Virus record (IMG/VR): IMGVR_UViG_3300025168_000682
Location: 1 to 23,688 of that record
DNA length: 23,688 nt
Reading direction: 5' to 3' (one strand)
Origin: a virus
Of this stretch, positions 1,556 through 23,280 are shown in pieces. The notes below the pieces were generated by a model. The model was not told the origin of the DNA. It was given only the letters and a program-made list of their open reading frames with translations, and made no database searches. Position 1 is the stretch's first letter. Each line of letters begins with the position of its first letter. A program made the translations under genes and the position numbers.

Positions 1556-2867
1556 TTCTGAAGTAGCTTCATTACTAAGTGAATTAGGACCAGTTAAAGC
1601 TGAAGAACTACAACACTCATGGGAGTTCTGGGCTAGACCTGAGCAACTTGAACCTGTCTCTAAAGATTGGAATACTTGGGTAGCATTAGCTGGTAGAGGT
1701 TGGGGTAAGACTAGAGCAGGTGCTGAGTGGGTAAGACACAGAGTTAAGAAGGGTGATAGGATCATCCATTGTGTTGCACCCACTAAAGGTGATGTAAGAA
1801 GGGTTATGGTTGAGGGAGACTCAGGTCTGCTCAATGTATGTTGGAAGGGTGATAAGACATATAGAGGAAAACACATTGGTTATCCTATATGGTCCCCCAC
1901 TAACAACAGTTTAACATGGGAGAATGGTGCTAAGGCAGTGTTCTTCTCAGCAGAAGACCCTGAGAGGTTAAGGGGTCCACAGGCTTATAGTGCATGGTGT
2001 GATGAAATCTGTGCATGGAGGAATGCCCAAAGTACTTGGGACATGCTTCAGTTTGGTTTACGTCTAGGTAAGCGTCCTCAAGTATTTGTAACGACGACAC
2101 CTAAAACAACCAAACTGATAAGAACTATACTAGATGATGATAAAACTACGATCAGCAAGGGTAGTACTTATGACAACTCTGCTAATCTTGCTGATACTTT
2201 TATCGACGCAGTCAGGAAGACCTACGAAGGTACACGCCTTGGGCGGCAAGAGTTATATGCTGAAATCCTTGATGAAGCGTCAGGCGCACTCTGGAACAGA
2301 AGTCTCCTAGCTAGTTGTGAGATTGACGAATCAGAAATACCTACTCTTAATCGTATTGTTGTAGCTATTGACCCAGCTATCACATCTAATGCTGAAAGTG
2401 ACATGACAGGGATTGTTGTTGCTGGTATAGATGTAAATGGACTAGCATACGTCTTAGAAGACCACACAGGAAGATATACACCTCAACAATGGGCATCTAA
2501 AGCAATAGAACTCTACAGAGATCACATGGCTGATAGGATTGTAGCTGAAAGAAATCAGGGTGGTGATATGGTTCGCCACACATTACACACAGAAGATGAA
2601 ACTGTCCCAGTAAAGCTCGTACACGCATCAAGAGGGAAGATGGCTAGGGCTGAACCAGTATCTGCACTATATGAACAGGATAAGGTTAGACACGTAAGGG
2701 GATTAAATGATTTAGAAGATCAGATGGTACAGTGGGAACCTCTAGGGTCCATAGGCTCACCAGACCGTCTTGATGCTTTAGTTTGGGCTATAACGGACCT
2801 CTCATTAAATGGCTACGCAAAACCTACACTAAAACTAGTGTACAGTAGCGCACAAGGACTTTCGTAA
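1500..2867 (+). CDS. terL: Terminase large subunit (ATPase and nuclease)
   Basis: The 455-residue protein is the packaging motor that cuts concatemeric DNA and pumps it through the portal. The ATPase motifs are clear: Walker A GRGWGKT at residues 65-71, Walker B ending in DE at 168-169 (AYSAWCDEI), and the TTTP coupling motif at 198-201. The RNase H-like nuclease follows with Asp291 (VVAIDPA), Glu350 (VAERNQGGD) and Asp422/Asp425 (SPDRLDALVWA). AERNQGGDMV and PDRLDALVWA are typical of the GTA-like Terminase_6 (COG5323) group. The start is GTG at 1500 inside the terS end, a 56-base overlap. The stop overlaps the portal start by one base. Length and motif set are complete. Confidence 0.96.
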   Translation: MNVALKKSVTAQALRELPDSEVASLLSELGPVKAEELQHSWEFWARPEQLEPVSKDWNTWVALAGRGWGKTRAGAEWVRHRVKKGDRIIHCVAPTKGDVRRVMVEGDSGLLNVCWKGDKTYRGKHIGYPIWSPTNNSLTWENGAKAVFFSAEDPERLRGPQAYSAWCDEICAWRNAQSTWDMLQFGLRLGKRPQVFVTTTPKTTKLIRTILDDDKTTISKGSTYDNSANLADTFIDAVRKTYEGTRLGRQELYAEILDEASGALWNRSLLASCEIDESEIPTLNRIVVAIDPAITSNAESDMTGIVVAGIDVNGLAYVLEDHTGRYTPQQWASKAIELYRDHMADRIVAERNQGGDMVRHTLHTEDETVPVKLVHASRGKMARAEPVSALYEQDKVRHVRGLNDLEDQMVQWEPLGSIGSPDRLDALVWAITDLSLNGYAKPTLKLVYSSAQGLS

Positions 2868-4207
2868 TGGTTAAGAAGCTCTCAGAAACAGAGGCCAAAC
2901 AAGTATTAGGTGTAGCTGGTGACAATACCTATAATGGGCAAATACGTGCTGATGAGTTCCTACCTGAGTTAAGGGGCCGAAAGGCCATACGTAAGTACCG
3001 TGAGATGAGAGATAACGACAGTACTATTGGTGCTGTTATGTACGCAACAGAACAAGTCCTTCGAGATGTTGATTTAAAGGTAGTACCAACTAATGATTCT
3101 TCAGAGGCTAAAAGAGAAGCTGAGTTCGTTGAGAGTGTTCTGCAAGATATGGATCACTCACTTGATGACCATGTTGCTGAAGCCCTTTCAAGTCTGTCTT
3201 ACGGCTTTGCGTGGTTTGAGGTCGTTTATAAGAGGCGTGAGGGTCCAAATACTAGGAATGATAAGAAAAGGTCTAAGTATTCTGATGGGCGTCTTGGGGT
3301 ACGTAAGATTGCTTGTCGTGCGCCTTGGACAATCTCTAGGTTTGAAGTAGATAGAAAAACAGGCGATGTATTAGGTATTTATCAAGATGTCTCAAGAATT
3401 AACAGTACAAGCTTCATCCCTACCAGAAAGAGTCTGTACTACAGAACTACCACTATTAACGGCGACCCTGCTGGTAGGTCTATTCTTAGGAATGCTTATA
3501 CCTCTTATGAGTACGTTAATAATTTACAATCTATCGAAGCGATAGCAGTTGAAAGAGAGCTTGCAGGTATTCCTGTTGCTCGTATCCCTGCTGAGTACCT
3601 ATCTAGTGATGCTACAGCTAATCAGAGTGGGTTCGTTAATAACTTACAACAAATCTTGCGAGATGTTAAATTTAATGAGCAAGGTTACATTATACTGCCT
3701 TCCGACACTTACCCTGATAAAGATGGAAGTCCTACCAACCAAAGACTAGTTGATGTAGAACTTATGTCTTCTAATGGCAGTCGTAATATAGATATTGATC
3801 CTGTGGTACGTAGGTATCAGCATGACATAGCTCGTTCAGTACTATCTGAATTTCTTATGCTTGGAGGTGGTTCCACTGGTTCCTATGCCCTCTCTAAGTC
3901 TAAGACAGACCTGTTCCTTCGTGCATTAGAGAGTTACATCCAAGCTATTGTTGATACCCTAAACAAACAGCTTGTTGAGAGGCTCTGGGAGTTGAACGGT
4001 CTGAATTATAACTTAATGCCACAAATTGTTGCTGGTGACGTTGCTCCACACGATCTACGTGAAATAGCAGCTTTCCTACGTAACTTGAATGGCGCAGACA
4101 TAAACGTAAGTAATCACCCAGAAGTGATACAAGACCTCATGGACATAGCTGAACTAAAGTATGATCCAGATATAAATGATAACGAAACACAACAGGAAAC
4201 TGAATAA
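2867..4207 (+). CDS. Portal protein
   Basis: The 446-residue protein would form the dodecameric ring at the capsid vertex that admits DNA and joins the neck. The N-terminal part (residues about 30-75, LRGRKAIRKYREMRDNDSTI followed by GAVMYATEQVLRDVDLKV) resembles DUF935 / Mu gp29-like portals. The central region includes the segment SLYYRTTTINGDPAGRSILR, in which a turn is followed by a G-x-S-x-L-R portal-like helix start. The C-terminal half is helical and ends in an acidic tail. It lies between terL (one-base overlap) and a small gene also joined by one base (TAATG). Size, place and sequence all fit a portal; the exact family is less certain. Confidence 0.88.
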   Translation: MVKKLSETEAKQVLGVAGDNTYNGQIRADEFLPELRGRKAIRKYREMRDNDSTIGAVMYATEQVLRDVDLKVVPTNDSSEAKREAEFVESVLQDMDHSLDDHVAEALSSLSYGFAWFEVVYKRREGPNTRNDKKRSKYSDGRLGVRKIACRAPWTISRFEVDRKTGDVLGIYQDVSRINSTSFIPTRKSLYYRTTTINGDPAGRSILRNAYTSYEYVNNLQSIEAIAVERELAGIPVARIPAEYLSSDATANQSGFVNNLQQILRDVKFNEQGYIILPSDTYPDKDGSPTNQRLVDVELMSSNGSRNIDIDPVVRRYQHDIARSVLSEFLMLGGGSTGSYALSKSKTDLFLRALESYIQAIVDTLNKQLVERLWELNGLNYNLMPQIVAGDVAPHDLREIAAFLRNLNGADINVSNHPEVIQDLMDIAELKYDPDINDNETQQETE

Positions 4208-4569
4208 TGGCAAGTTTAAATGATGATGTGTTTGATGATGGTTTGTCAGTACTAAGTTCTGCTACCACTCTCATTCATATAACCTCTCAAGAGGCTACTA
4301 CAAGAGCGCAAGCAGTTACTAACTACACACTAGGTAATGCATCAATTTCCATTGCTGCCCCCACAGATCGTTCTGGTGGTGGGCGTAAGGTTGTTGCACC
4401 AGCTATAAACGGTGCTTCAGTTACTGGCACAGGGACAGCTACACACTATGCTGTTGTTGATGGCACAAGACTATTAGCTGCTGGGGTTCTTACAGCCTCA
4501 CAAGCAGTAACAAGTGGAAATACTTTCTCCTTGACCACATTTGATATTGGTATCCCAGACCCAGCTTAA
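4207..4569 (+). CDS. Small beta-rich structural protein, 120 aa
   Basis: The ATG overlaps the portal stop (TAATG). The protein starts MASLNDDVFDDGLSVLSSAT, and then alternates Thr/Ser/Ala-rich beta strands (TGTGTATHYAVVDGTRLLAA, TSGNTFSLTTFDIGIPDPA). No membrane helix, catalytic motif or Cys is present. Proteins with this start and with the TSGNTFSLT.FDI ending occur in marine phage structural regions, to my recollection without a proven role. Position next to the portal and before fibre-like genes suggests a virion decoration or adaptor protein. The function is unassigned. Confidence 0.65.
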   Translation: MASLNDDVFDDGLSVLSSATTLIHITSQEATTRAQAVTNYTLGNASISIAAPTDRSGGGRKVVAPAINGASVTGTGTATHYAVVDGTRLLAAGVLTASQAVTSGNTFSLTTFDIGIPDPA

Positions 4570-4581
4570 GGTTAGACTATC

Positions 4582-7233
4582 ATGAGTAAGCTTTTCAACC
4601 GCGCAAAAATGACTACAACGACAACTGGCACAGGTAACTTGACGCTTGGTAGCGCGGAGGAAGGCTTTGTTACATTTGCAACGGCTGGCGTCGTAAACGG
4701 TGATGTTGTAAGATATTGCATCGAAGCTGAGAATGGCACTGATTTTGAGCTTGGTGAGGGTGTTTATACGGCTTCTGGCACAGTGCTTTCACGCCTAGAC
4801 GCAGACGTTCAACTAAGCTCGAACAGCAACAATCGCATAACTCTGGCGGCTGGTACACACAACGTATTTATCACGGCTGTTGACTCTGACTTCACGCAAG
4901 AAATGACCGTCACCGTTGCAGGTGGAAAGTTTGTCATCGACGGCACAAGCCAGCAAATTATCACGCTTGTTCCAAGTATTACCTATAGGCTAGATCAATC
5001 TGACAGTAGCAACAATGGGCATCCCTTATTATTGGCGAGTGGGGGCGCTGACGGTAGTACCTATCCCACAGGTGTTCGCACTGTCGGTACGGCTGGAACC
5101 GCTGGCAGTTATGTTCAGATTAAACTGGAGCAAGATGTGCCTGCAATCTGGTACAAGTGTTCAAATCATTCTGGCATGGGACAAAGCATTAATATTGCTG
5201 CGCCAGCCTCTGGTGCTGCGTCAGCGGTAGGCACACTCACTAAAACATTTTCTAATAATGAAGAAGCTACTATTACACTTACTGGCTCAATCAGCCCTGT
5301 TCCAAATGTTTCTGTCTTTAAGGAAATCGCTCAAGTTGGACTAAGTTCAAAAGGAAATTGGGATGTAAATAGCACGGCATCAAATTACACCAGACTAAAT
5401 GAAGCGACAGCCGTTACGCTTACCCCCTCAGCGGTTGGGTCAGGAACCTTTTCGCTTGGATCAGGGTCGTTTGCAGCCGCAGACATAGGAAAAACTATCA
5501 CTGGGAATGGCGGGGTTGCAGTGTTAACCAGCGCGGCTGGAGCCTATACGACTTCGACTAATTTTACCAATACAAACGCCATAGCTTCTGGAAGCTGGGA
5601 TATGTATGGGAGCGTTCCAAAGAGTGATGGTTCTGGCCTGACTATTAGTTCTTTTGATCAATCTGGCACTCAGATGAACGCTGGGACAGTAGCCTCTCCA
5701 AGTAACAACATATCGCAGCCAACCTACTTTGCTTCATATAATAATTCTGGCTATCAGTGGGAGGTCACTCATTTTATAGATGATGGTCTTACAGCATATC
5801 AACTTAGTGGCACGACCATAAAAAAATGGACTTTGTCTAGTGCGTGGGATATTTCAACCCTGTCGGTTGCCGCAAACTACACTGGCTTTCAAGCAGTGAG
5901 GGGTAACACTGCGATAGCATTTTCGGCCACAGGCGACAAAGTTTTTTATAGAGCAAACGACAAAAACACTTTGTTGGCTTATCCTCTTTCAACGAACTAC
6001 GATTTATCAACGGCAGGCACCGTCGTAACAAAAACTTTAAGCTATCAAGGGTCTAATTCTACAGATTCAATCGGTCAATACATCGACAACCCAACAATTA
6101 GTTCGACAGGATTAGATAATAATTGGTTTCAATTTTCTCCCGATGGCTTATACTTTGTGATGCACTGTTGGACTTCCAGCGGTGGCTTGATTCGTGGGAG
6201 CCTAAGCACGGCTTGGGATATTACCACACTTACTTTAAATCAAAGTCTTGCATCAGGTGCTTCTAGTTCCCCTGCTCAACCGAGAGTAAACAGATCAGGT
6301 GGTGGAGTCTCTAACAATAATGCCGCTGGAGTTTGGTTTTCTAACGATGGGAAACTTGTTGTCTGGAGTGATGGATCGGGTGTTTTATCGGGCTATCAGT
6401 ATAAATTTTCTACTGGATGGGATTTTTCGACGGCAAGCGTAACGACAAACGGTGGTTGGGCGCTTCCTGTTCCATCAGGCAATAGCGGCAGAGACAAGGG
6501 CTATCAGTCTTTATATATTGGTAAAAAAGCTAACAACGACATTGTTATGGTTGGTAGTGTGTTTCTGAACACTGCCGCCGCGTCTGGAATTGCGACAGGC
6601 GGTGAACAAGAAGTTGTGCGAAGTCATGTCATAGGTAACGATCCTAGGTCTACCTCAGGATTTCCCAACGGACAATATTTCCCAAGCGTAACAGCACCGT
6701 CAGGCCAAATTGACAGTAGTGCATGGACAGATATAAACTCTATGGTCGCTGACGAAGCTGCTGGTAGCGGAACACTAAATTATGCTCTCTCTACAGATAA
6801 TCATGTAACATGGAAAGTACTTCACAATACAAGCGGAACACGCTCAATCGTTAAAAATAACTCTGGCACATGGCAGATCAATACCAATGCCACCTACGGA
6901 TCAGAAACTTGGGCAAATGCTACTACTAACACTGAACTGGCTGCTCTCCAACAGGCTTTAGCCACGGCAAATAATCGCATGGACAAGACTCAATTAGACG
7001 CAGTGGCAGACGCCAATCAGATAGCTCTTGGTGATACACTTGACCTGATGATTGCCCCTTATATCACCAGTGGGACACCCCCTCTGAGTGATGGCGTAAC
7101 AATAAATTACGATGGGAGCGCATTAAATCGACAAGCAATTAACGGCACTGATTATCAAGCAGAATTTCCATCTGCAACAAGCGTAAAAATAAAGTCACTT
7201 GCTGCACAAAATCTCAAAGTGAGAGTGCTGTAA
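4582..7233 (+). CDS. Large fibre-like protein with cupredoxin-like module and propeller repeats, 883 aa
   Basis: Three regions can be seen. Residues 1-103 are a beta-rich module (LFNRAKMTTTTTGTGNLTLG; GVVNGDVVRYCIE) found at the start of many marine phage fibre proteins. Residues about 106-206 resemble a cupredoxin: GHP with His147, then WYKCSNHSGMG with Cys193, His196 and Met199, the order of type-1 copper ligands. Residues about 220-720 hold FSxDG-type propeller blade starts at Phe398, 447, 518 and 586, each followed by LSTAWDIST-like strands. The C-terminus (about 720-883) has a Ser/Thr-rich domain, a short helix (residues near 790) and a final strand NLKVRVL. No intramolecular chaperone or collagen repeats appear. 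Its DNA uses GCG, CGC and GGC more freely than its neighbours, hinting at separate acquisition. It is placed between portal and protease, so a head fibre or capsid decoration role is possible. Confidence 0.8.
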   Translation: MSKLFNRAKMTTTTTGTGNLTLGSAEEGFVTFATAGVVNGDVVRYCIEAENGTDFELGEGVYTASGTVLSRLDADVQLSSNSNNRITLAAGTHNVFITAVDSDFTQEMTVTVAGGKFVIDGTSQQIITLVPSITYRLDQSDSSNNGHPLLLASGGADGSTYPTGVRTVGTAGTAGSYVQIKLEQDVPAIWYKCSNHSGMGQSINIAAPASGAASAVGTLTKTFSNNEEATITLTGSISPVPNVSVFKEIAQVGLSSKGNWDVNSTASNYTRLNEATAVTLTPSAVGSGTFSLGSGSFAAADIGKTITGNGGVAVLTSAAGAYTTSTNFTNTNAIASGSWDMYGSVPKSDGSGLTISSFDQSGTQMNAGTVASPSNNISQPTYFASYNNSGYQWEVTHFIDDGLTAYQLSGTTIKKWTLSSAWDISTLSVAANYTGFQAVRGNTAIAFSATGDKVFYRANDKNTLLAYPLSTNYDLSTAGTVVTKTLSYQGSNSTDSIGQYIDNPTISSTGLDNNWFQFSPDGLYFVMHCWTSSGGLIRGSLSTAWDITTLTLNQSLASGASSSPAQPRVNRSGGGVSNNNAAGVWFSNDGKLVVWSDGSGVLSGYQYKFSTGWDFSTASVTTNGGWALPVPSGNSGRDKGYQSLYIGKKANNDIVMVGSVFLNTAAASGIATGGEQEVVRSHVIGNDPRSTSGFPNGQYFPSVTAPSGQIDSSAWTDINSMVADEAAGSGTLNYALSTDNHVTWKVLHNTSGTRSIVKNNSGTWQINTNATYGSETWANATTNTELAALQQALATANNRMDKTQLDAVADANQIALGDTLDLMIAPYITSGTPPLSDGVTINYDGSALNRQAINGTDYQAEFPSATSVKIKSLAAQNLKVRVL

Positions 7234-7824
7234 GTGTTAGGATTTAACCCACTAGCATCTAGTCCAATAGGGGCAGCAGGGGTTGCACAAGCAGACCAGA
7301 ACATAACTACTGGTGTGCCTGAGCTTGGCAGTCCAGTTATAACTGTAAACAACGTCATACTGGCTACAGGTATCACTACTGCTCCAGCTACCGTAGGTTC
7401 CCCTAGCTCTCTTGAACAAGATCAAATTCTAAGCCCAAGCACTCTAAATACCCCTAGTGTTGTTGTTGATAACGTAACTATTACTCAGGCTCAGGTGTTG
7501 GGCGCGACAGGGTTTTCTACTGGTAGTCCAATTGTAGCTACTCCTAGCATATCTATAAACTATTTGTTAAGTAGTACTGACATAGAAACCAGCAGTCCAA
7601 CTCTAGGCACTTCTGTCTTAGTTCAGAATGTGGCCTTAACTGCTTCTAGTATAGAGACACCTACTTCACAGGTTTCTTCCTCTACTATATCTCAGTTACA
7701 TAACTTAAGGTCAACAGGTATTACTACTGCCCCAGCTATCGTAGGTAATGTAGGCCAAGCAATAGATATAAGTCTTAGTACCGAAAACTCTGCTGTCTTA
7801 GTAGACACTTCAAACATTCTCTAA
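7234..7824 (+). CDS. Ser/Thr-rich tandem-repeat protein, 196 aa
   Basis: GTG at 7234 follows the stop of the large fibre-like gene without a gap. After about 22 residues the protein consists of about seven degenerate repeats of 22-24 residues. Examples are ITTGVPELGSPVITVNNVIL, ITTAPATVGSPSSLEQDQIL, FSTGSPIVATPSISINYLL, IETSSPTLGTSVLVQNVAL and ITTAPAIVGNVG. The pattern is I-x-T-x2-P-x-V/L-G-x-P followed by a beta strand ending in L. This suggests an elongated beta-solenoid or fibrous structure. No signal peptide, membrane helix or catalytic residue is visible. Repeats of this style are common in marine phage structural proteins. Its location suggests a partner or extension of the preceding protein. 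Confidence 0.75.
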   Translation: MLGFNPLASSPIGAAGVAQADQNITTGVPELGSPVITVNNVILATGITTAPATVGSPSSLEQDQILSPSTLNTPSVVVDNVTITQAQVLGATGFSTGSPIVATPSISINYLLSSTDIETSSPTLGTSVLVQNVALTASSIETPTSQVSSSTISQLHNLRSTGITTAPAIVGNVGQAIDISLSTENSAVLVDTSNIL

Positions 7825-7838
7825 CTTAGGTTTATCTA

Positions 7839-8159
7839 ATGGCATTTGTAATTAAACAGAATGATACTTCACCAGCAGTACAAGCGTCTTTAAAGGTTGC
7901 TAATGGTAATGCTGTAAATTTAAGTGGGGCAACTGTTAAGTTTCTTATGAAGTCTTTAGATGGGGTGCTTAAAGTAAATACTAACATGACTGTTTCTAAT
8001 GCTGGTGCTGGTACAGTTAATTACAACTGGCAGACAGGTGACACAGACACTGCTGGTTCTTACTTTGTTGAGTTTCAAGTTACCTTTGCTGATGGTACTA
8101 TAGAAACTTTTCCTAACTCTAAGAACCTAAACATATCAATTACGCCAGACTTAGGATAA
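7839..8159 (+). CDS. BppU-like beta-sandwich domain protein, 106 aa
   Basis: The sequence FVIKQNDTSPAVQASLKVAN, the NLSGATVKFLMK segment, YNWQTGDTDTAGSYFVEFQV and the late FPNSKN match the N-terminal domain family of phage baseplate upper proteins (BppU-like). In that family the signature is D-T-x-P-x-L near the start and W-x2-G-D-T-x2-A-G-x-Y-x2-E-F. The domain is one beta-sandwich and fills the whole protein. It normally acts as a structural adaptor linking receptor-binding proteins to a virion. Here it stands alone, 14 bases after the repeat protein and just before the protease, so its partner is not obvious. Confidence 0.8.
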   Translation: MAFVIKQNDTSPAVQASLKVANGNAVNLSGATVKFLMKSLDGVLKVNTNMTVSNAGAGTVNYNWQTGDTDTAGSYFVEFQVTFADGTIETFPNSKNLNISITPDLG

Positions 8160-8164
8160 TAGAC

Positions 8165-8959
8165 ATGGAAGATGGTTACTACGTAGACAAAGCAGACAAA
8201 CCACTTAACAAACCTTTTAGGCTACCTTCTGGTTCTTCTAAGAAGTTTGGTGTTTATGTAAAAGATGGAGATAAAACCAAGAAAGTTACTTTTGGTGATC
8301 CTAATATGGAAATCCGTAGGGATAATCCTAAAGCTAGAGCTAACTTTCGCTCTCGTCATTCCTGTGATACAGCAACAGATAAGACTTCCGCTAGATATTG
8401 GTCTTGTCGTATGTGGTCATCAGGATCAGTGTCTAGCATCACAAAAGAGGAAGAAGACTTTAAGCCTCACATGATGTATGACCCCAAGACAGGTAAAGGA
8501 ATAATGGCAAATACATACCAAGAGCACCTAGACATGAAAGACAAAGAGTTTACCCACGATAAACCAACAATACAGAAAAGTTTAGAGGGACTTATTTTAA
8601 AGTCTGACGAAGAACAACGTCTAGTATATGGCTGGGCTTCAGTAGTTACTGAAAAGGGTGAACCAGTAGTTGATCGTCAAGGTGACGTAATAGAACCTGA
8701 CACGTTAGTAAAAGCCGTGAATAACTTCATGGAGCATGTACGTGTGGGTAAGCAGATGCATACAGGGGAACAAATTGGAGCAGTTATTCACTCCATGCCT
8801 GTCACTAAAGAGATTGGTGATTCCCTTGGCATACAGAGTGACCGTGAAGGGTGGATCGTAGCTTTTAAAGTGTACGACGATGAAGTCTGGAACAAAGTCA
8901 AATCTGGAGAACTTGCGGCCTTCTCTATAGGTGGTCGTGCAATCAAGGAGGACATTTAG
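8165..8959 (+). CDS. Prohead maturation protease, XkdF-like (Peptidase_S78_2), with N-terminal extra domain
   Basis: The 264-residue protein would cleave scaffold and capsid proteins during head maturation. Residues 138-264 match the XkdF-like serine protease family: LILKSDEEQRLVYGWASVV, the VDRQGDVIEPDTL segment, His199 in KQMHTGEQIG, and Ser254 in ELAAFSIGGRA. His and Ser are the likely catalytic pair. Residues about 18-85 form a separate Cys-containing module (KKFGVYVKDGDKTKK; RSRHSCDTATDKTSARYWSC) often seen fused to this protease in marine phages; its role is unknown. The stop overlaps the GTG of the scaffold gene by one base. The C-terminal segment normally expected after the protease core (LDELSLVDRPAN) is encoded at the start of the next gene instead. 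Confidence 0.88.
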   Translation: MEDGYYVDKADKPLNKPFRLPSGSSKKFGVYVKDGDKTKKVTFGDPNMEIRRDNPKARANFRSRHSCDTATDKTSARYWSCRMWSSGSVSSITKEEEDFKPHMMYDPKTGKGIMANTYQEHLDMKDKEFTHDKPTIQKSLEGLILKSDEEQRLVYGWASVVTEKGEPVVDRQGDVIEPDTLVKAVNNFMEHVRVGKQMHTGEQIGAVIHSMPVTKEIGDSLGIQSDREGWIVAFKVYDDEVWNKVKSGELAAFSIGGRAIKEDI

Positions 8960-9741
8960 TGCCTAACCTTTTAAAACAGCTTGAATTGGATGAGTTGTCT
9001 TTGGTGGATCGCCCAGCGAACGCACAGGCAATGGTTTCCTTGTACAAGCGTGACCCTTCCAATGGAGAACCTATGGAAAATGATATAGAAAAGATGTCAG
9101 ATGACATGAAAGCTAAACTTAAACCATACATGGATAAAGGTATGTCTGAAGAAGATGCCATGAAAATGTATGAGCAAGACATGAGGAAAGCTGATGAAGC
9201 AACTGAAGACGAGCTTACATTAGAGAAACTAGAGGCTGAAAATCAACTTCTACGTAAAGCCCTAATTGAGAATGACTTCGTTATTCGTGCTGACTCAATA
9301 GAGAAAAAAGTTGAGCCTGAGTATGTTGAGTATGATGGTGAGCAGATCAATAAAGCTGACATTCCAGCACCTATCCTAAAAGCTTTGGAAGCAGCGGATA
9401 TTGCTAAGGCAGAAGCTGAACTGACCAAAAAGGCAGAAGAAGCTCTACCTAACTTTAATATCGAAGTAGCTAAAACCTTAGTGTCTAAGTTTGATGGAGA
9501 AGAAACAATTATGGAAGCTCTGAAGGCTGCTGATGCAGTGTTCGCAGAATCTATGCAAGAATTTGGTAAATCAGATGCTAACGGCGATTTCGCTACAGCC
9601 TCAGATAAACTAGATGTTATGGTAAAGTCCTACATGGACGAAAACAAAATGAAGAAGAGCCAGTATGCCGTTGCTTATGCAGCCGTTGCTAAGACCGACG
9701 AAGGAAAAGCTCTTATAACTAAATCCTATAAAGGGGAATAA
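8959..9741 (+). CDS. Capsid scaffold protein
   Basis: GTG at 8959 shares a base with the protease stop and has a strong ribosome binding site (AAGGAGG at 8946-8952). The 260-residue protein is rich in Glu, Lys and Ala, with long predicted helices (for example residues 84-108, LEKLEAENQLLRKALIEND). This is typical for a scaffold that shapes the prohead and is later degraded by the protease. The first 25 residues (LELDELSLVDRPANAQAMV) are the motif usually at the C-terminus of S78-like proteases. The downstream order of decoration protein and major capsid protein supports the call. The protein has no enzymatic motif. Confidence 0.82.
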   Translation: MPNLLKQLELDELSLVDRPANAQAMVSLYKRDPSNGEPMENDIEKMSDDMKAKLKPYMDKGMSEEDAMKMYEQDMRKADEATEDELTLEKLEAENQLLRKALIENDFVIRADSIEKKVEPEYVEYDGEQINKADIPAPILKALEAADIAKAEAELTKKAEEALPNFNIEVAKTLVSKFDGEETIMEALKAADAVFAESMQEFGKSDANGDFATASDKLDVMVKSYMDENKMKKSQYAVAYAAVAKTDEGKALITKSYKGE

Positions 9742-9743
9742 AA

Positions 9744-10112
9744 ATGGCTGTTATGGAATCTCGTGACAATCGGACGTTTACTGCTGGGGCTGATCTTTCG
9801 ACACACCAGTTAAAATTTGTAAAAGGTGGCCCTGCTGCTGCCGTACTCTGTGGAGCTTCTGAAGTTGCTTCTGGAGTACTACTAAACGACCCTGCTAACG
9901 CTGGTGCTGCCACTGTTTGTGTTGGTGGTAAAGTACTTGTTAAAGCTGGGGGAGCTATCGCTGCTGGCGCACTCGTAGCCTCAGATGCTAATGGTTTAGC
10001 AGTAACTCATGTTGCTGGAGCAGGTAAATATGAAATGGGCTATGCTTATGAAGCTGGCGTAAACGGGCAGACTATTGCAATCGAATTTATCGGCGGCGGT
10101 AACCTCCACTAA
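9744..10112 (+). CDS. Head decoration protein, DUF2190-like
   Basis: The 122-residue protein starts MAVMESRDNRTFTAGADLST and consists of short Gly/Ala-rich beta strands (GKVLVKAGGAIAAGALVASD, then KYEMGYAYEAG). This layout fits the DUF2190 family of small capsid-stabilising proteins, which bind the outer surface of the head. A GGGG-containing ribosome binding site lies 8-12 bases upstream. It sits between scaffold and major capsid protein, the usual place for such a gene. The assignment is by pattern and context. Confidence 0.75.
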   Translation: MAVMESRDNRTFTAGADLSTHQLKFVKGGPAAAVLCGASEVASGVLLNDPANAGAATVCVGGKVLVKAGGAIAAGALVASDANGLAVTHVAGAGKYEMGYAYEAGVNGQTIAIEFIGGGNLH

Positions 10113-10135
10113 TTTGGGATAGAAAGGAATAAACT

Positions 10136-11143
10136 ATGCCACTATTAACACCATCACAGGTTCACATTGATGCCCCGTTGAGTAACCTCACGCTTGCTTA
10201 TGTGCAATCTTCAGAAAACTTTATTGCTGACAAGGTCTTCCCCGTAGTGGGCGTACAACGTCAGTCAGATAAGTACTACCTATATGATCGTGCAAACATG
10301 AACCGTACAGGGGATGTCAAGGCACTTGCCCCTCGTACAGAAGTAAATCGTATAGGCATGTCAATCTCTAACTCATCTTACTTTGCTGATGTGTTTGGTC
10401 TAGGAATGGACTTTGACGAACAGACTATGGCTAACGAAGATGCCATGCTAGAAATGCGTCAAGCTGGTGCTGAAACACTTGCTATGCGCCTTATGATCCA
10501 CCGTGAAGAGCAGTTCGCAACTGAGTTCTTTGCCGCTGGTAAATGGGGTATTGACCGTTCTGGAGTAGCTGGTGTGCCAACTGCTGTTCAGTTCCGTCAG
10601 TGGAATGACTACACTAACTCCACACCTATTGTAAACATAACTAACTTTAGCCGTGAAATGCAGCTTAAGTCAGGTGGTTTTAAGCCAAATACTATGATTG
10701 TCGGAAAAGAGGTTCGTGATCAGCTTATAAACAACCCAGACATTTTAGCTCGTTTAAATGGTGGTTCTACTGTAAATAACCCAGCTTTGGTTATCAACTC
10801 TAAACTAGCTGAAATCTTTGAGGTAGAAAACTTCTTTGTCATGGAAGCAGTCAAGAACAGTTCTGCTGAAGGTGTTGCAGAATCTAATGCCTTTATCGGT
10901 GGTAAGTCTGCTCTGCTGACATACACACCATCTAATGCTGGACTTATGACCCCAGCAGCAGGTCTGACTTTTGCTTGGAATAACATTCCATCAGCAAACA
11001 ACTTAGGTATCACCGTTGAGTCTTTCTCAGATGATGCCCTCAAGCGTCAGCAAGTTGCTGAACACATCCAAGTTAAAATGGCTTACGACATGAAAGTTGT
11101 CGGAGCAGACTTAGGATTGTTTATGCCTACAGCAGTAGCTTAA
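10136..11143 (+). CDS. Major capsid protein
   Basis: The 335-residue protein would build the icosahedral shell, probably with the HK97 fold. The N-terminus (HIDAPLSNLTLAYVQSSENF followed by IADKVFPVVGVQRQSDKYYL) matches a common phage capsid group. A long helix follows around residues 95-125 (MDFDEQTMANEDAMLEMRQA), corresponding to the spine helix region, and the C-terminal half contains the axial-domain-like strands. AAAGGAAT lies 8 bases before the ATG. The protein is not visibly preceded by a long scaffold arm, consistent with the separate scaffold gene. Hairpins follow directly after the stop. Confidence 0.9.
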   Translation: MPLLTPSQVHIDAPLSNLTLAYVQSSENFIADKVFPVVGVQRQSDKYYLYDRANMNRTGDVKALAPRTEVNRIGMSISNSSYFADVFGLGMDFDEQTMANEDAMLEMRQAGAETLAMRLMIHREEQFATEFFAAGKWGIDRSGVAGVPTAVQFRQWNDYTNSTPIVNITNFSREMQLKSGGFKPNTMIVGKEVRDQLINNPDILARLNGGSTVNNPALVINSKLAEIFEVENFFVMEAVKNSSAEGVAESNAFIGGKSALLTYTPSNAGLMTPAAGLTFAWNNIPSANNLGITVESFSDDALKRQQVAEHIQVKMAYDMKVVGADLGLFMPTAVA

Positions 11144-11146
11144 TTT

Positions 11147-11178
11147 CCACTGGTGGGGGCTGTAGTGGCCCTCACTAC
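11147..11178 (+). promoter_or_regulatory. Competing RNA hairpins after the major capsid gene
   Basis: GTAGTG (11162-11167) pairs perfectly with CACTAC (11173-11178) around GCCCT. Overlapping alternatives are CCACT (11147-11151) with AGTGG (11164-11168), and GGGGGC with GCCCTC. These structures exclude each other. No strong T-run follows, so this may be an attenuator, an RNA processing site or an mRNA 3' stabiliser rather than a full terminator. Confidence 0.5.
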
Positions 11179-11200
11179 TCTTATCCCGATGGAGACTGTT

Positions 11201-11596
11201 ATGACCCAACACAGACAAATACCCTTTCAGTACGACAGACCCTTGTTTGTTAAGGTTCCGTTTACTTCCGCTGGAAGACAACTAGAAATTCAGCAAGAGT
11301 TTAAGTGGAGAGAACAAAGCTCCCCTATAGAAAAGGTGGAGTTTCTGTACATTCAAGGTTACTTATACCACAACGCAGAACTAGAAAAGACTGCTAAGGT
11401 TGGAGATGGTTTAGAAGTACTTGACCTCAGTGGTTTACATTCTCTAGTGCAGACTATAAATCAAAAAGTCAAAAGTGCGACTAACAGCATTACAGATTTC
11501 GACAAACAGAAGTGTAAGAAATCTCAAGTAATAGATAAACAACGTGGGCTTATTCGTAGCTGGCGTAGGAATTACGGTCAAATGGAGACTATTTAA
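11201..11596 (+). CDS. Hypothetical head/neck protein, 131 aa
   Basis: I place the start at ATG 11201 because GGAG (11191-11194) lies 6 bases upstream. The frame is open further back to 11153, but this would run through the hairpin. The protein starts MTQHRQIPFQYDRPLFVKVP, has a central strand-rich part (VEFLYIQGYLYHNAELEKTA) and ends in a basic helical tail (KQKCKKSQVIDKQRGLIRSW). I do not recognise the family. The place between major capsid and connector genes suggests a role in head completion, for example a capsid-associated or neck protein. Confidence 0.7.
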   Translation: MTQHRQIPFQYDRPLFVKVPFTSAGRQLEIQQEFKWREQSSPIEKVEFLYIQGYLYHNAELEKTAKVGDGLEVLDLSGLHSLVQTINQKVKSATNSITDFDKQKCKKSQVIDKQRGLIRSWRRNYGQMETI

Positions 11597-11598
11597 AT

Positions 11599-12057
11599 AT
11601 GGCTTGGAGTTATGACGAAAGTGATCTAGGTACAACGACAGTTTCTAACCGTCTTAACTCTGTACGTCTGCTTCTTGGTGATACTGACACTACAGACCAA
11701 CAAGTACAGAATGAAGAAATAGTATTTGCTCTAGGACAAACTAGTAACAATATATATCTTTCTGCTGCATGGGCAGCAAGAGTTGTAGCCGCCAAGTATT
11801 CCAGACAAGTTACTACTAACCTTAGTGGGGCTTTGAGTGCTGATTACTCTGATTTAGCTTCACAATACTCTTCTCTAGCTGATAGTCTTGAGTATCAAGG
11901 TAAGAAGGCTGGTGCTGTTTTAGGAATAAAAGCTGGCGGTATAACTAAATCAGGTGTTGATGCTGTTAGACTAGATACTAATAGAATTAAACCTTCTTTT
12001 AGAAGAGATAAGTTTCATAACCCACCTAGTTATAGTGGTAATGAGTACGAAAACTAA
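11599..12057 (+). CDS. Head-tail connector (adaptor) protein
   Basis: The 152-residue, largely helical protein contains NRLNSVRLLLGDTDTTDQQV, the EEIVFAL helix, and AAWAARVVAAKYSRQV. This fits phage head-tail adaptors in which a short N-terminal helix bundle docks on the portal: R-x2-LGDTD-T-x2-Q, then an I/L-x2-AL helix, then an Ala-rich helix. The C-terminus (RRDKFHNPPSYSGNEYEN) is flexible. It starts two bases after the previous stop. Position directly before the putative stopper and tail completion genes supports the role. Confidence 0.75.
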   Translation: MAWSYDESDLGTTTVSNRLNSVRLLLGDTDTTDQQVQNEEIVFALGQTSNNIYLSAAWAARVVAAKYSRQVTTNLSGALSADYSDLASQYSSLADSLEYQGKKAGAVLGIKAGGITKSGVDAVRLDTNRIKPSFRRDKFHNPPSYSGNEYEN

Positions 12058-14864: not shown

Positions 14865-15211
14865 AAGAGTACGCTGAGTACTCCTTTAAGATGGGTCGTA
14901 AAGTTCAAGGTAAGACAACTGAACAAGATCATCTCGCCCAAGTAGCAAAACAGTTAGGAAAGACCTTAAGTGATATTGAAGAATCTAATTCACAGGCACT
15001 CTTTCCTGACGTTGCAGCACATTTATGGGCCACCTTCCTTGAGTTACACGATGGTAGAACTTATGGGATGAGTGGCCCTAATCCTATCTCATACGATATA
15101 ATATCTGGTTGGTCTACTATAACTGGTGTTGATTTATCACCGTGGGAACTAAGCACTATAAAGTCTCTGGATAATCTCTGGATTAAGAACGTAAGTGAGG
15201 AAAGTAGCTAA
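14843..15211 (+). CDS. Frameshift extension of the tail assembly chaperone (gpGT-like)
   Basis: After a -1 shift at 14837-14843 translation continues for 122 residues (GQVRGELEEYAEYSFKMGRK and onward), giving a fusion of about 253 residues with the gpG-like part. In lambda the T part of gpGT binds the tail tube protein while the G part binds the tape measure. The extension has helices and ends in NLWIKNVSEESS. An internal ATG at 14891 has no good ribosome binding site, although TTTAAGATG lies there, so independent translation is less likely. The stop overlaps the tape measure start by one base. Confidence 0.82.
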   Translation, partial: GQVRGELEEYAEYSFKMGRKVQGKTTEQDHLAQVAKQLGKTLSDIEESNSQALFPDVAAHLWATFLELHDGRTYGMSGPNPISYDIISGWSTITGVDLSPWELSTIKSLDNLWIKNVSEESS

Positions 15212-18200
15212 TGGCTGATCTTAATCAAGTTGAACTGAAGTTAGTGGTCAAAGAAAAGGGGCTTAAAGAGTCTATCACTGCTGTTAGTAAACTTGAAAGA
15301 GATATTATAAAGGCTACTAAAGCTTTTAATAGTGCTAAAATATCACAAGATAGGTACAATAAAATCCTCTTAGCAGCTAAGAGAGAGTATCAAGCTCTTG
15401 GTGTATCTAGTCAAAAAGCTACTGCTGAAATAAGAAGGTTTGCTGCTGCCCAACTACAAGCAATGGGAAATGTTAATAATACTACAAGTGCTATAAACAA
15501 ACAAACCGCTGCTCAGATGACAGCTACCAAAGCTAATAATAGGATGGGTGTAGTAACTCAGCAAGCTGGTTATCAAGTTGGTGACTTCCTAGTTCAAGTG
15601 CAGTCTGGAACTAATGTGATGGTTGCATTTGGTCAGCAAGCCACTCAACTAGTAGGTGTACTACCTCTTGTAGCTACGCAACTTGGCCTGACTGCAAACA
15701 GAGCTATAGCTATAGCCGCAGGTCTAGGTATAATAATTCCCCTTTTAACTGCTTTTGGGGCTTATTGGTTAAGATCAAGAGAAGCTAATGAGGCTGCTAA
15801 TGATACTTTAAAGGATACTGACGAAATTATTAGAGACTTAAATATTGCTATTAAATCCGCTGACAAAGAATTAAGGCTCTTACATTCTACTTTTACAAAA
15901 ATTACAGAGTTAGTGGTAGTAGATAAAATTTCTGAGCTTCAAGAAGAACTCAAGATTTTAGAAACCGAGCTTCCCAAAATAATAAATAAGTTTAGTGAAA
16001 TTTTTAATGTTAATGGTGAGATAGCCGAACTTAATGCTAAGACAGTTTCTGACACTATCCAAGCTAGAAAAGAAGAGATTGAGATATTAAAAACGACTTT
16101 AGCTAAGTTAATTGCTAAAGAAAATCTACTGGAAATAGAAAAAAGTTATAAAGAACTTTTAGAAGAAATTAATAATATAGAATCAGATACCACAGAAAAA
16201 AATATAGAGTTAAACTCTTCGTTAAGGGAAAGGCAACAGCTTGCCAAAGCTTTCCTTGCTGGCGGCGAAGAAGCAGTAAAAAAAGAAGAACAGTTAATAG
16301 AAAATACTAAGTTAGTAACCGAGCTTCTTAGTGAAAAGTATGACTTTTCTCAAGCTCAAATAGGGGCAATTCTTAAGCAGGTTAAAGTTACTCAAGACTT
16401 AGAGGAAGAAGTAACCAAAGTTGTAAACCAATTACAATTAGCAAAGGAAGCGCAAGAACTATTTTTTGAGAATGTTGAAAAGTCTACAGAAGCAGAGAAA
16501 GAAAGGTCTGAAATCGTTGACGGTATTCTTCAGTCTATTGAAGATGAAAATAATTTAATGCAAGCTCAAATAAAACTGAACAAGTTTACAATTGCGTTTG
16601 GTAAAGATTCTGTAGCATTTAAAACACTGGAAAAAAAACAAGCAAGAGAAGCCTACAAAAACGAACTTCAGCGGAATGGTATACTAGGTAACAACTTAGT
16701 TTTACTTATGAAAGCCCATGATCTTATTTCTGATCAATTAGATGATATAAAGGATATTAACGAAGAAGAGAAAGAATTAGAAGAAACTACAAAAAAAATA
16801 GCAAGAGAGACTAGGAAAGTATCTATAGCTGTAGAAGCTATTGGAAAAGCATATGAATCAGCATTAGGAAGACTTAATTCTTTTGGGGATAGTGTCTCAG
16901 AGAGACTTGCAAAAATAACTGCTTCAAACAAGGCTATTAAATCTGGATTAGATGGGCAGATAGCTGGAGAAATAGCTCTTTTAAAGGTTAGAAGAGACTC
17001 CTTAGCTGTTGAAATTGAAGCTAATGACCCAGAACAAAGAGAGGCAAAAATAAAAGAAATAGACAATATAACCAAATTAATAACAGCTACAGAAGAGCAG
17101 TTAATACTAGGAAAAAAATTAACTGACTCTACAAAAGCCTATGCAAAAGCGTCGGATGATGCTAAAAGGGAAGCAGAAAGATTAGCGCAAGAGCTACAAG
17201 GTCCAGTAGTAGGTGCTATAGGTAGTGTCTCTAATGCCTTTGGGGACTTTATAGCTAGGGGTCTGACAGACTTTAAAGGTTTTGTAGATCAAATTCTATT
17301 CTCCTTTACTAGTATGATAGCACAAATGATTGCTACAGCAGCCAGAAACAAAATCTTACTTAGCATGGGGTTTGGTGGTGCAGGTGCAGCAGGTGTTACA
17401 TCAGCCTTTGCTGGTCCTATGGGCAGTTCTATAGGGGCGTTTGGTGCTGGTGCGGCTGCTGGTACAGGATTTTTAGGTGGTGCTGGTGCCGCACTTTCTG
17501 GTGGTATGGGGAATATCTTTAATATAGGTGGTAATGCTGCTGCTGCTGGTGGTACTATGGCAGCAACAATAGGTGCTGCTATAGTGCCTATACTAGCTGT
17601 AGCTGCTGTAATAGGTTTACTTACTAAGAGGACTAAGACGTTAGACTCAGGGTTAAGAGTAACAGCAGATGGTATGGATACTTTAGTAGAGTCTTTTGCA
17701 AGAACACAAGACTCTAGGTTGTTTGGTCTACTTAAGAGTAAGCCTAAGACTAGGTACTCTGCTGCTGGTTCTGATGTATCTGACCCCCTTACTGGTTCTG
17801 TAGCCGCAATGCAACAGTCAGCTATAGCTGCTGCTGAAGTATTAGGATATACCTCTGCTGCATTTGAGGACTTCTCCTACCAGTTTAAAGTATCACTTAA
17901 GGGGCTGACTGAAGAAGAAGCTGCTCAAAAAGTAACTGAAGAATTAGTTAAGATGGGTGATGCTTTTGCTGCTCTTATACCATCTTTTACTAGCCTAAAC
18001 GAATTACTTGCTACTGCCCAACAGAGGTTTGACCTACAGACTAGGTTATACGCATTGTTAGGTGATCAAGAAGAGCTTCTACTTAGACAGAGGAATGCTG
18101 AAAGAGCAGCTACACATGAGTTAAATCAAGACTTGCTAGAAGCAATTTACACTCTTGAAGACGCTCAAATTGCCTTTAATAAAGCAGATGATGCACTAAA

Positions 18201-21370: not shown

Positions 21371-21766
21371 ATGGCTAACCCAAATATTGTCAGTGTAACA
21401 AGTATTGTTGGGGGTAACTTAGGTTTTAATTTAACCGCAACTGCAACAGCAACACTTATTACAGTAGATTCAAATAAACTCTTAAAAATAAATAAAATAA
21501 CAGTTGCAAATGTTGATGCTACAAGTGCAGCAACTGTAGATTTGTTTGTGGATGGTTTAACAACTGCTGGGGCGGCTGGTATCACGCCAACTGGCGCAGA
21601 TGCAACAGTTTATCTAGCAAAAACAATTAGTGTTCCATCAGATACCACCTTAGTTCTTGTAGACTCTCCTATATATTTAATGGAGGGAGATATTTTAAAG
21701 GGTGGTGCTAGTGCTGCTGGTGATCTAGACTTATTTGTATCTTATGAAATAATAGATGACGCATAG
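21371..21766 (+). CDS. Beta-rich tail structural protein, 131 aa
   Basis: AAGGAG lies 7-8 bases upstream of ATG 21371. The protein starts MANPNIVSVTSIVGGNLGFN and shows alternating strands (TATATATLITVDSNKLLKIN; TVDLFVDGLTTAGAAG; VYLAKTISVPSDTTLVLVDS). Proteins with the MANPNIVxVTSI start are frequent in marine phage tail regions without a known function. The fold looks like a beta-sandwich; no membrane or enzyme motif is visible. Its place between glycan-binding-like and propeller proteins suggests a fibre connector. Confidence 0.7.
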   Translation: MANPNIVSVTSIVGGNLGFNLTATATATLITVDSNKLLKINKITVANVDATSAATVDLFVDGLTTAGAAGITPTGADATVYLAKTISVPSDTTLVLVDSPIYLMEGDILKGGASAAGDLDLFVSYEIIDDA

Positions 21767-21774
21767 GATTGGCA

Positions 21775-23280
21775 ATGAAGTATGTTGGAAACGTCCAATC
21801 ACAAGCTAATGCAGAAGTATTTGCTGTAGCATCAGGTGCTATTGGCACGGACAAAACCTGTATTGTTAATAGCGATGGGACTGTTAGTGTTGTTGGAAAT
21901 ACTTCAATAAATGCTGCTGTAGGCACGGCGGTTGTTTTTGAGTCAGGCGTTACCACTTGGATGGGCGTAACGTATGACAGCAATTCAGATAGAATCGTAG
22001 TTGTTTATACCGATGAGGGTAATAGTTATTATGGAAAAGCCGTTGTAGGCCAAGTCACGGCAGGAAATAACTCTATAAGTTTTGGAACCCCTGTAGTTTA
22101 TCTAAGCGCACAGACAAGCAACTCATGTGCTACCTTTGATAGCAGCAATAATAAAGTTGTTGTTTCATACGTTCGGACTAGCGACAACGCTGCTTATTCA
22201 AGTGTAGCAACAGTTGACCCCTCCGATAATTCTATAAGTTTTGGCACTGCTGTACAATTTGAATCAGAGTCTAGCGCATATGTATCAACCACCTTTGATA
22301 GTAATTCTAATAAGGTTGTTGTGATATACGGAAACGCCGTTGATGAGCATAGTGGTCAGTCCAGAGTTGGAACTGTCTCAGGAACAGGCATCAGCTTTGG
22401 AACGAGAGCTACTTTTCAAGTTTGTTCTGGCGGTAATGGTATCTACGGCACAAGTTGCGCCTTCGACTCCACAGCTAATAAAGTTCTTATTTTATACTCT
22501 AACAGAGATGACAGTAATAAACTAAAAGTTGTAGTTTCAACAGTATCTGGAACAGATATTTCCTTCGGCTCTCCTGTTGAAATTAGTGGAGATGCTTCGG
22601 AAACTACTCGTAACACAATAACATTTGATAGCACTAATAACAGGGCTGTGGTTGCCTACACGGATACTGGAAATACAAATAAGGGTACAGCAGCGGTGGG
22701 TACAGTGTCAGGTACGACCATTTCGTTCGGAACTCCTGTTGTTTTTGCAGATATGCAAACTGCAACAGATTTTAAGGGGCCACAAATAACATTTGACGCC
22801 AGTGTTGGCAAAGTGGCTGTACAAGTTCAAGTGTATGACGGAAATACCTCACACGGAAGAATGTATTCTGCAACAGTTGATCCCTCCGATAACTCCATTT
22901 CTTTTGACACACATGTAGTCTTTGATACTTCTGAAGTTAATGGGCTTGGGATAACCTACGATAGTACGTCAGAAAAAGTAGTTATGATTTGGGCTGACGT
23001 AGGTTCCAGCAACCAAGGAACAGCCAGCGTAGCACAGCTATCTGGGTCTGTTCCAAACCTCACCTCAGAGAACTACATTGGCATTTCCAATGCAGCCTAC
23101 GCCGACACGCAGACCGCCACGATTCAAGCTGGTGGTGCAGTCAACACTGGGCAGTCGAGCCTGACAATAGGCCAACAGTATTTCGTACAAACAGATGGAA
23201 CGATTGGCACAACAGCAGCCACCCCCTCAGTAATTGCAGGGACAGCAGTCTCTGCCACAGATTTAATCGTGAAAGGATAG
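21775..23280 (+). CDS. Seven-bladed beta-propeller tail protein, candidate receptor-binding protein, 501 aa
   Basis: I chose ATG 21775, 6 bases inside an alternative TTG start, because AGGA lies upstream. Residues 1-45 (VFAVASGAIGTDKTCIVNSD) form a head module. Residues 48-428 contain exactly seven repeats of about 55 residues, each with a strand such as TTFDSNSNKVVVIY and then VGTVSGTxISFGTPVVF. The Asp of the xFDS motif lies at residues 68, 122, 175, 231, 285, 341 and 396. This predicts a seven-bladed propeller. The last 73 residues (LTSENYIGISNAAYADTQTA and on) are a separate module found at the end of marine phage fibre proteins, finishing LIVKG. No enzyme motif is seen, so a host-binding role is the best guess. 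Its first 40 residues are related to the next but one gene. Confidence 0.82.
   Translation: MKYVGNVQSQANAEVFAVASGAIGTDKTCIVNSDGTVSVVGNTSINAAVGTAVVFESGVTTWMGVTYDSNSDRIVVVYTDEGNSYYGKAVVGQVTAGNNSISFGTPVVYLSAQTSNSCATFDSSNNKVVVSYVRTSDNAAYSSVATVDPSDNSISFGTAVQFESESSAYVSTTFDSNSNKVVVIYGNAVDEHSGQSRVGTVSGTGISFGTRATFQVCSGGNGIYGTSCAFDSTANKVLILYSNRDDSNKLKVVVSTVSGTDISFGSPVEISGDASETTRNTITFDSTNNRAVVAYTDTGNTNKGTAAVGTVSGTTISFGTPVVFADMQTATDFKGPQITFDASVGKVAVQVQVYDGNTSHGRMYSATVDPSDNSISFDTHVVFDTSEVNGLGITYDSTSEKVVMIWADVGSSNQGTASVAQLSGSVPNLTSENYIGISNAAYADTQTATIQAGGAVNTGQSSLTIGQQYFVQTDGTIGTTAATPSVIAGTAVSATDLIVKG

Follow-up and report, generated by a model that had tools for sequence, protein, structure and literature searches.

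Phages are known to carry neck whiskers, collar fibres and modular tail fibres. In Shigella phage Sf14, cryo-EM places the whiskers gp30 and gp31 in the neck and mass spectrometry detects both (PMC11821841); the genome runs terminase, portal, whisker gp30, whisker gp31, protease, decoration, capsid. Solved structures are available for Sf14 gp31 (FDI99_gp126; PDB 9c39), for the connector protein of phage Bas63 (9mt4) and for the portal-tail complex of GP4, a short-tailed Ralstonia podophage (8jou, 8jov). The neck fibres of Anabaena phage A-1(L) and the collar fibres of Pseudomonas phage DEV hang on the neck collar, and the tip of the A-1(L) neck fibre did not bind its host (PMC10966104, PMC10925440). 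Host-binding fibres on the head are also known, as in the capsid fibres of phage 7-7-1 (PMC12796354).

Here we describe a cassette of four genes from a marine phage genome, which carries a whisker-type adaptor together with a large fibre and is a variant of these known phage fibres, not a new capsid decoration. A nested cassette of this kind, with large exchangeable fibres and two alternating slots, was not found described in a limited literature search.

Results

The window and its cassette

The window is the whole stretch of DNA analysed, 23,688 nucleotides of IMG/VR record IMGVR_UViG_3300025168_000682, and it is a piece of a CRP-6-like roseobacter phage genome, the closest isolate being Roseobacter phage CRP-6 (portal identity 83%). 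Its genes follow a siphovirus-like order of terminase, portal, cassette, protease, cement, capsid, connectors, tail tube, tape measure and tail-end genes (Table 1). The first 1,030 nucleotides (1-1030), which precede the small terminase gene, are AT-rich (31.7% GC), with plus-strand ORFs all of 57 aa or less, and no tRNA or Rfam family was found in the window. The protease has 264 aa, as against about 390-406 aa in many relatives, where there is an extra N-terminal region. Judged from their tape measure sequences, the window and CRP-6 have had tail modules swapped beneath a conserved head, with 1590 aa in the window (15211-19983) versus 568 aa in CRP-6, of which only 64 aa align.

Table 1. Positions of the cassette genes, their domains and neighbouring features in the window.
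Feature	Position	Strand	Evidence
Portal (Portal_Mu family), upstream flank	2867..4207	+	Pfam PF06074 E 6.7e-30; phrog_113 2.7e-66
g120, 120-aa fibre adaptor of PHROG 240 / neck-whisker / GP4 fibre-I type	4207..4569	+	phrog_240 5.6e-6; fold matches
g883, 883-aa fibre	4582..7233	+	N-domain homologs in >60 cassette fibres; aa 217-883 common to roseobacter podophage tail-region proteins
g883 N-terminal anchor domain, aa 1-105	4582..4896	+	AF2 pLDDT about 93; GP4 tail-fibre N-terminus fold
g883 cupredoxin-like domain, aa 105-212	4894..5217	+	His, Cys-x2-His, Met in blue-copper spacing
g883 propeller-like repeat region, aa 390-660, weakly supported	5749..6561	+	faint 68-aa periodicity; AF2 not confident there
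g196, 196-aa protein of 23-aa repeats	7234..7824	+	autocorrelation at 23, 46, 69
BppU_N-like protein, 106 aa, single domain	7839..8159	+	PF10651 5.9e-6, 26.5 bits vs Pfam cut-off 23.1
Head maturation protease (Peptidase_S78_2), downstream flank	8165..8959	+	PF14550 6.1e-19
Capsid cement/decoration candidate (Phage_cement_2), apart from cassette	9744..10112	+	PF09956 2.5e-6; adjoins capsid gene 10136-11143
131-aa protein after tape measure	21371..21766	+	homologs inside cassettes elsewhere: L005, L006, L035, L051, L052, L065, L066
503-aa protein after tape measure, 54-aa repeats, likely fibre	21769..23280	+	homolog adjoins cassette in L017

A sequence-only reading of the window had placed four genes between portal and protease, encoding fibre-like or adaptor-like proteins, one of them a repeat protein and one BppU-like. 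All of this was borne out, by the four ORFs themselves, by the family and fold of g120 and the anchor domain of g883, by the repeat period of g196 and by the Pfam score of the last gene. The cassette genes are separated by 0-14 bp, the stop codon of the portal gene overlaps the ATG of the 120-aa gene, and promoter- or terminator-like sites within the cassette were in no excess over shuffled sequence, which suggests that the genes are co-transcribed. CRP-6 and many IMG/VR contigs have homologous genes in this order, and the arrangement is therefore not due to chance.

The same reading had noted separate tail fibre genes after the tape measure. Genes are indeed present there (302, 153, 131, 503 and 84 aa), but the 131-aa and 503-aa proteins have homologs in the cassettes of other phages.

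g120 is a predicted adaptor of the neck-whisker type

Matches to phrog_240 were obtained for g120, for its counterpart in contig L120 (2e-7) and for Sf14 gp31 (1.9e-27), and the same family was matched by DB2 gp8, DB2 gp9 and Venkman gp59. When a g120 profile was compared with all PDB sequences, Sf14 gp31 came first at a modest E of 0.015; pairwise hhalign of the two gave 4.9e-5, a link that covers about 50 residues and is weak alone. An AF2 model of g120 (pLDDT 88.5) was then compared with known folds by VIA-align, where the best matches were Sf14 gp31 (9c39_K, Z 9.6), the Bas63 connector (9mt4_L, 9.2) and GP4 fibre I (8jou_a, 8.0), followed by a 7-7-1 tail-fibre entry (7.5) and by unrelated rows such as methyltransferases at about 5-6. 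Comparison of the predicted fold turns the modest sequence link to gp31 into a firm one. The adaptor fold was also seen at lower Z in baseplate-arm proteins of phi812 and A511, and in tail-collar fibre proteins (BFVD).

The public label of PHROG 240 is 'head protein'. Its members with solved structures belong to a neck or to a fibre-tail complex, being neck-whisker or fibre-adaptor proteins, and GP4 fibre I is close to the PHROG 240 protein of phage Venkman (9.6e-12); the label thus appears misleading.

Both g120 and Sf14 gp31 are encoded between portal and head protease, and the gene order of Sf14 repeats that of the window, with a GpE-type capsid gene downstream in both phages (a weak match in the window). 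Sf14 differs in that its slot holds a pair of short whisker genes without a long fibre, where the window and its relatives have the adaptor, then a repeat protein and often large exchangeable fibres. The g120 profile gave no significant match to Sf14 gp30, and no cassette protein was seen to match the gp30 family, phrog_3977.

g883 joins a conserved anchor to a variable tip

Over 60 ORFs in related cassettes have a counterpart of the first 105 residues of g883, and some of these ORFs hold little beyond this domain. Outside cassettes, the domain also forms the start of other genes: a 162-aa gene 3' of those for the tail tube in Venkman, one of fibre size close to the coat gene in podophage CRP-207, and in Seuss a small one that lies downstream of the large tail fibre. 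PDB sequence searches with g883, and with its N-domain alone, gave no match. By predicted fold its best solved counterpart, without a sequence link, was the N-terminus of the putative GP4 tail fibre (8jov_1) with a Z of 7.8, which is below 8 (next match 5.8), a suggestive resemblance to a part of the portal-tail complex. The AF2 model of whole g883 had a mean pLDDT of 45.9 and was useful for the N-domain only.

The sequence-only reading had called this a cupredoxin/propeller protein. The cupredoxin half is supported, as the H, C-x2-H, M pattern is kept in every homolog row that reaches the site, without a Pfam match for the region; the propeller half is weakly supported (Table 1). It is possible that the domain carries an intact blue-copper site, a candidate read from these conserved residues, within a phage fibre. 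Cupredoxin-like domains also occur in pelagiphage and cyanophage tail-fibre or structural proteins, and in J-type proteins close to the C-terminus.

Residues 217-883 are shared with proteins of the tail gene region in roseobacter podophages CRP-2, CRP-9, CRP-13 and CRP-738 (35-55% identity over the covered parts), and close relatives of g883, like those of the BppU-like protein, are few in IMG/VR. Fibre tips are exchanged between cassettes, and with these podophage proteins, and the anchor parts are kept. Such a combination of constant base and exchanged tip marks receptor-binding fibres, and this suggests that the cassette fibres may bind the host.

The repeat protein and the BppU-like protein

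Nearly every cassette has a relative of g196 that is longer than g196 itself. The 106-aa protein scores above the Pfam threshold for the N-terminal domain of BppU from lactococcal phage TP901-1; that protein, however, has several domains and is encoded with Dit, Tal and BppL, whereas here a single domain adjoins the head protease and not a baseplate block. Close relatives of the small BppU-like protein adjoin terminase and portal genes in haloviruses HGTV-1 and HRTV-25 (L084 3250-3603 and L085 7307-7645), a link across host domains.

The portal-protease junction is filled in all complete relatives

Relatives were gathered through portal or g120, which gave 48 loci with both portal and protease; the collections were queried with proteins of the window, and the counts hold for this phage group. 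An insert was found at the junction in 48 of 48 loci, in nested sizes from 1.6 to 8.5 kb. Adaptor and repeat protein are kept throughout, with fibres and then BppU layered on top: 32 loci are minimal (1.6-2.0 kb; adaptor and repeat protein), eight have in addition a fibre that bears the g883 N-domain (2.3-3.4 kb), and a further eight, including the window and CRP-6, have BppU and more fibres or domains besides (4.0-8.5 kb). Among the 48, BppU was seen only together with an N-domain fibre. Fibre chaperones (Phage_tail_APC) are also encoded in sister cassettes, as is a fibre that ends in S74. Four of the eight extended loci lack the adaptor and have a 145-aa protein (phrog_644) of unrelated appearance in its stead; considered as a g120 homolog, this protein, which takes the place of g120 in 11-12 loci, gave no hhalign signal.

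The description of the cassette as interrupting the usual gene order was accordingly misleading, since the junction is occupied in every complete relative and in Sf14 as well. The synteny comparison that had been proposed for a unit present or absent as a whole showed a modular set that travels as a unit, with anchors kept and tips exchanged. With none of the 48 complete junctions empty, a present-or-absent insertion is ruled out for this group.

The CRP-6 region has the homologous order of g120 (here gp62), N-domain fibre (gp61), repeat protein and BppU, and differs from the window in adding a collagen-like fibre, a chaperone and a lysyl-hydroxylase/glycosyltransferase-like enzyme. This fibre (99 Gly-X-Y triplets in CRP-6, 26 with Lys in Y) is paired with the enzyme, of 589 aa, in seven related loci (L002, which is CRP-6, at 8287-11899; L095, L098, L101, L103, L144 and L150). 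The enzyme has PLOD-type glycosyltransferase and 2OG-Fe(II) oxygenase domains, resembles animal or mimivirus procollagen lysyl hydroxylase, and was never seen without the collagen gene in related loci; no description of a phage PLOD-type collagen enzyme was found in the literature searched.

The same cassette follows the central tail fibre gene J in other phages

In L140, L137, L153, L099, L093, L111, L139, L145 and L155 the cassette lies, in the same gene order, directly after J or a fibre chaperone, and so it does in L119, with another tail type. The whole unit of g120, N-domain fibre, repeat protein and BppU stands right after J in L140, L137, L153, L099 and others. The longer of these contigs carry three unrelated head modules, and their portal-protease junction is empty where both genes are visible.

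Adaptors at the two slots are up to 96% identical, as in L136 (portal side) and L139 (J side), where 118 of 123 g120 residues agree. In the g120 tree J-side and portal-side sequences are interleaved, supported branches forcing at least 4-5 slot changes, and slot-specific adaptor lineages are thereby ruled out. Near-identical adaptors and the same cassette after J beside unrelated heads show that the cassette moves as a unit.

Exactly one g120, on the portal side or after J, was found per record in 22 whole records, although most contigs are fragments, in which a second copy may lie beyond the ends. CRP-6-type portals are present in nine of the 22, several of which also have J elsewhere. The earlier suggestion of a second binding system on the virion stays uncertain on these data, one cassette per contig speaking against it and the J of portal-side phages for it.

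Discussion

On balance we lean towards the cassette being an adaptor-plus-fibre apparatus docked at the portal vertex, on the neck or collar, with exchangeable tips that probably bind the host. We prefer the neck since it is the site of the nearest solved relatives, one of which is encoded in the same gene slot. The 120-aa adaptor would sit on the neck, and the 883-aa fibre, probably a trimer, would dock through its first 105 residues, leaving the cupredoxin-like, propeller-like and C-terminal domains free for contact with the host or another surface; accessory stalk or docking parts may be supplied by the 23-aa-repeat protein and the single BppU-like domain. With g120 resembling fibre I of GP4 and the g883 N-domain its tail fibre, a single solved portal-tail apparatus holds partners for two parts of the cassette, but GP4 is short-tailed, and in its relative BcepMigl the adaptor gene is in the tail block after the capsid genes and not between portal and protease. 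The likeness to A-1(L) and DEV lies in the collar-hung fibres, and their gene places are unlike that of the window. CRP-6 has been reported as short-tailed (PMC6918029), which makes the neck geometry uncertain. Genes for a tape measure protein and for the central tail fibre J in its genome (L002 20176-25979) are at odds with that description.

The main rival, because the unit also adjoins J, is that the fibres are side tail fibres docked on the tail tip or tube, the portal-side place being merely a hot spot of gene exchange. The occurrence of the unit after J with three unrelated head modules, together with the repeated interchange of slots in the g120 tree, suggests that the docking partner may be on the tail, and the near-identity of the L136 and L139 adaptors, the N-domain genes of Venkman and Seuss and the role of BppU in TP901-1, where it is a baseplate protein, point the same way. 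Against this, the window and the J-side phages have almost no recognisable tail protein in common, and the solved adaptor relatives nearest by fold belong to a neck or to the GP4 fibre-tail complex. As the cassette occurs at both slots, gene position alone cannot settle between neck and tail, and we regard side tail fibres as possible yet rather unlikely.

The sequence-only reading had favoured head fibres or an outer capsid decoration, proteins bound to the capsid shell that would give the virion a second host-binding surface. Placement within the head gene block, the PHROG 240 label and the precedent of 7-7-1 speak for this, but the capsid shell is the least likely docking site because neck proteins explain that label (solved g120 relatives lie at the neck in Sf14 and Bas63, or in the GP4 fibre-tail complex), the window has its own cement gene next to the capsid gene, and the unit occurs with unrelated heads, which is hard to reconcile with binding one capsid lattice. 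No cassette protein had a Pfam match to a head-fibre or decoration family. We consider head fibres or capsid decoration improbable. That the proteins are absent from the virion and have a role in the cell, such as that of a superinfection factor or a secreted adhesin, would fit with our having found no virion proteomics for this phage group, but is very improbable given the tight coupling to portal and protease, the adaptor and fibre anchor folds and the fibre chaperones of sister cassettes.

Beyond the question of neck or tail, we tentatively propose, as a conjecture that may well prove wrong, that the cassette works as a plug-in fibre set, complete in itself. Its adaptor could dock on phages with unrelated heads and tails, and whole host-binding systems would in this way jump between two fixed slots and between phage lineages.

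For annotation, the 'head protein' label of PHROG 240, which has been copied into many genomes, should read neck or fibre adaptor. If docking at the neck is true, an abundant marine phage group would carry exchangeable neck fibres, and its host range could shift by gene swaps in the head block with the tail tip untouched. A cassette found beside unrelated heads and tails would offer a testable case of portable host binding.
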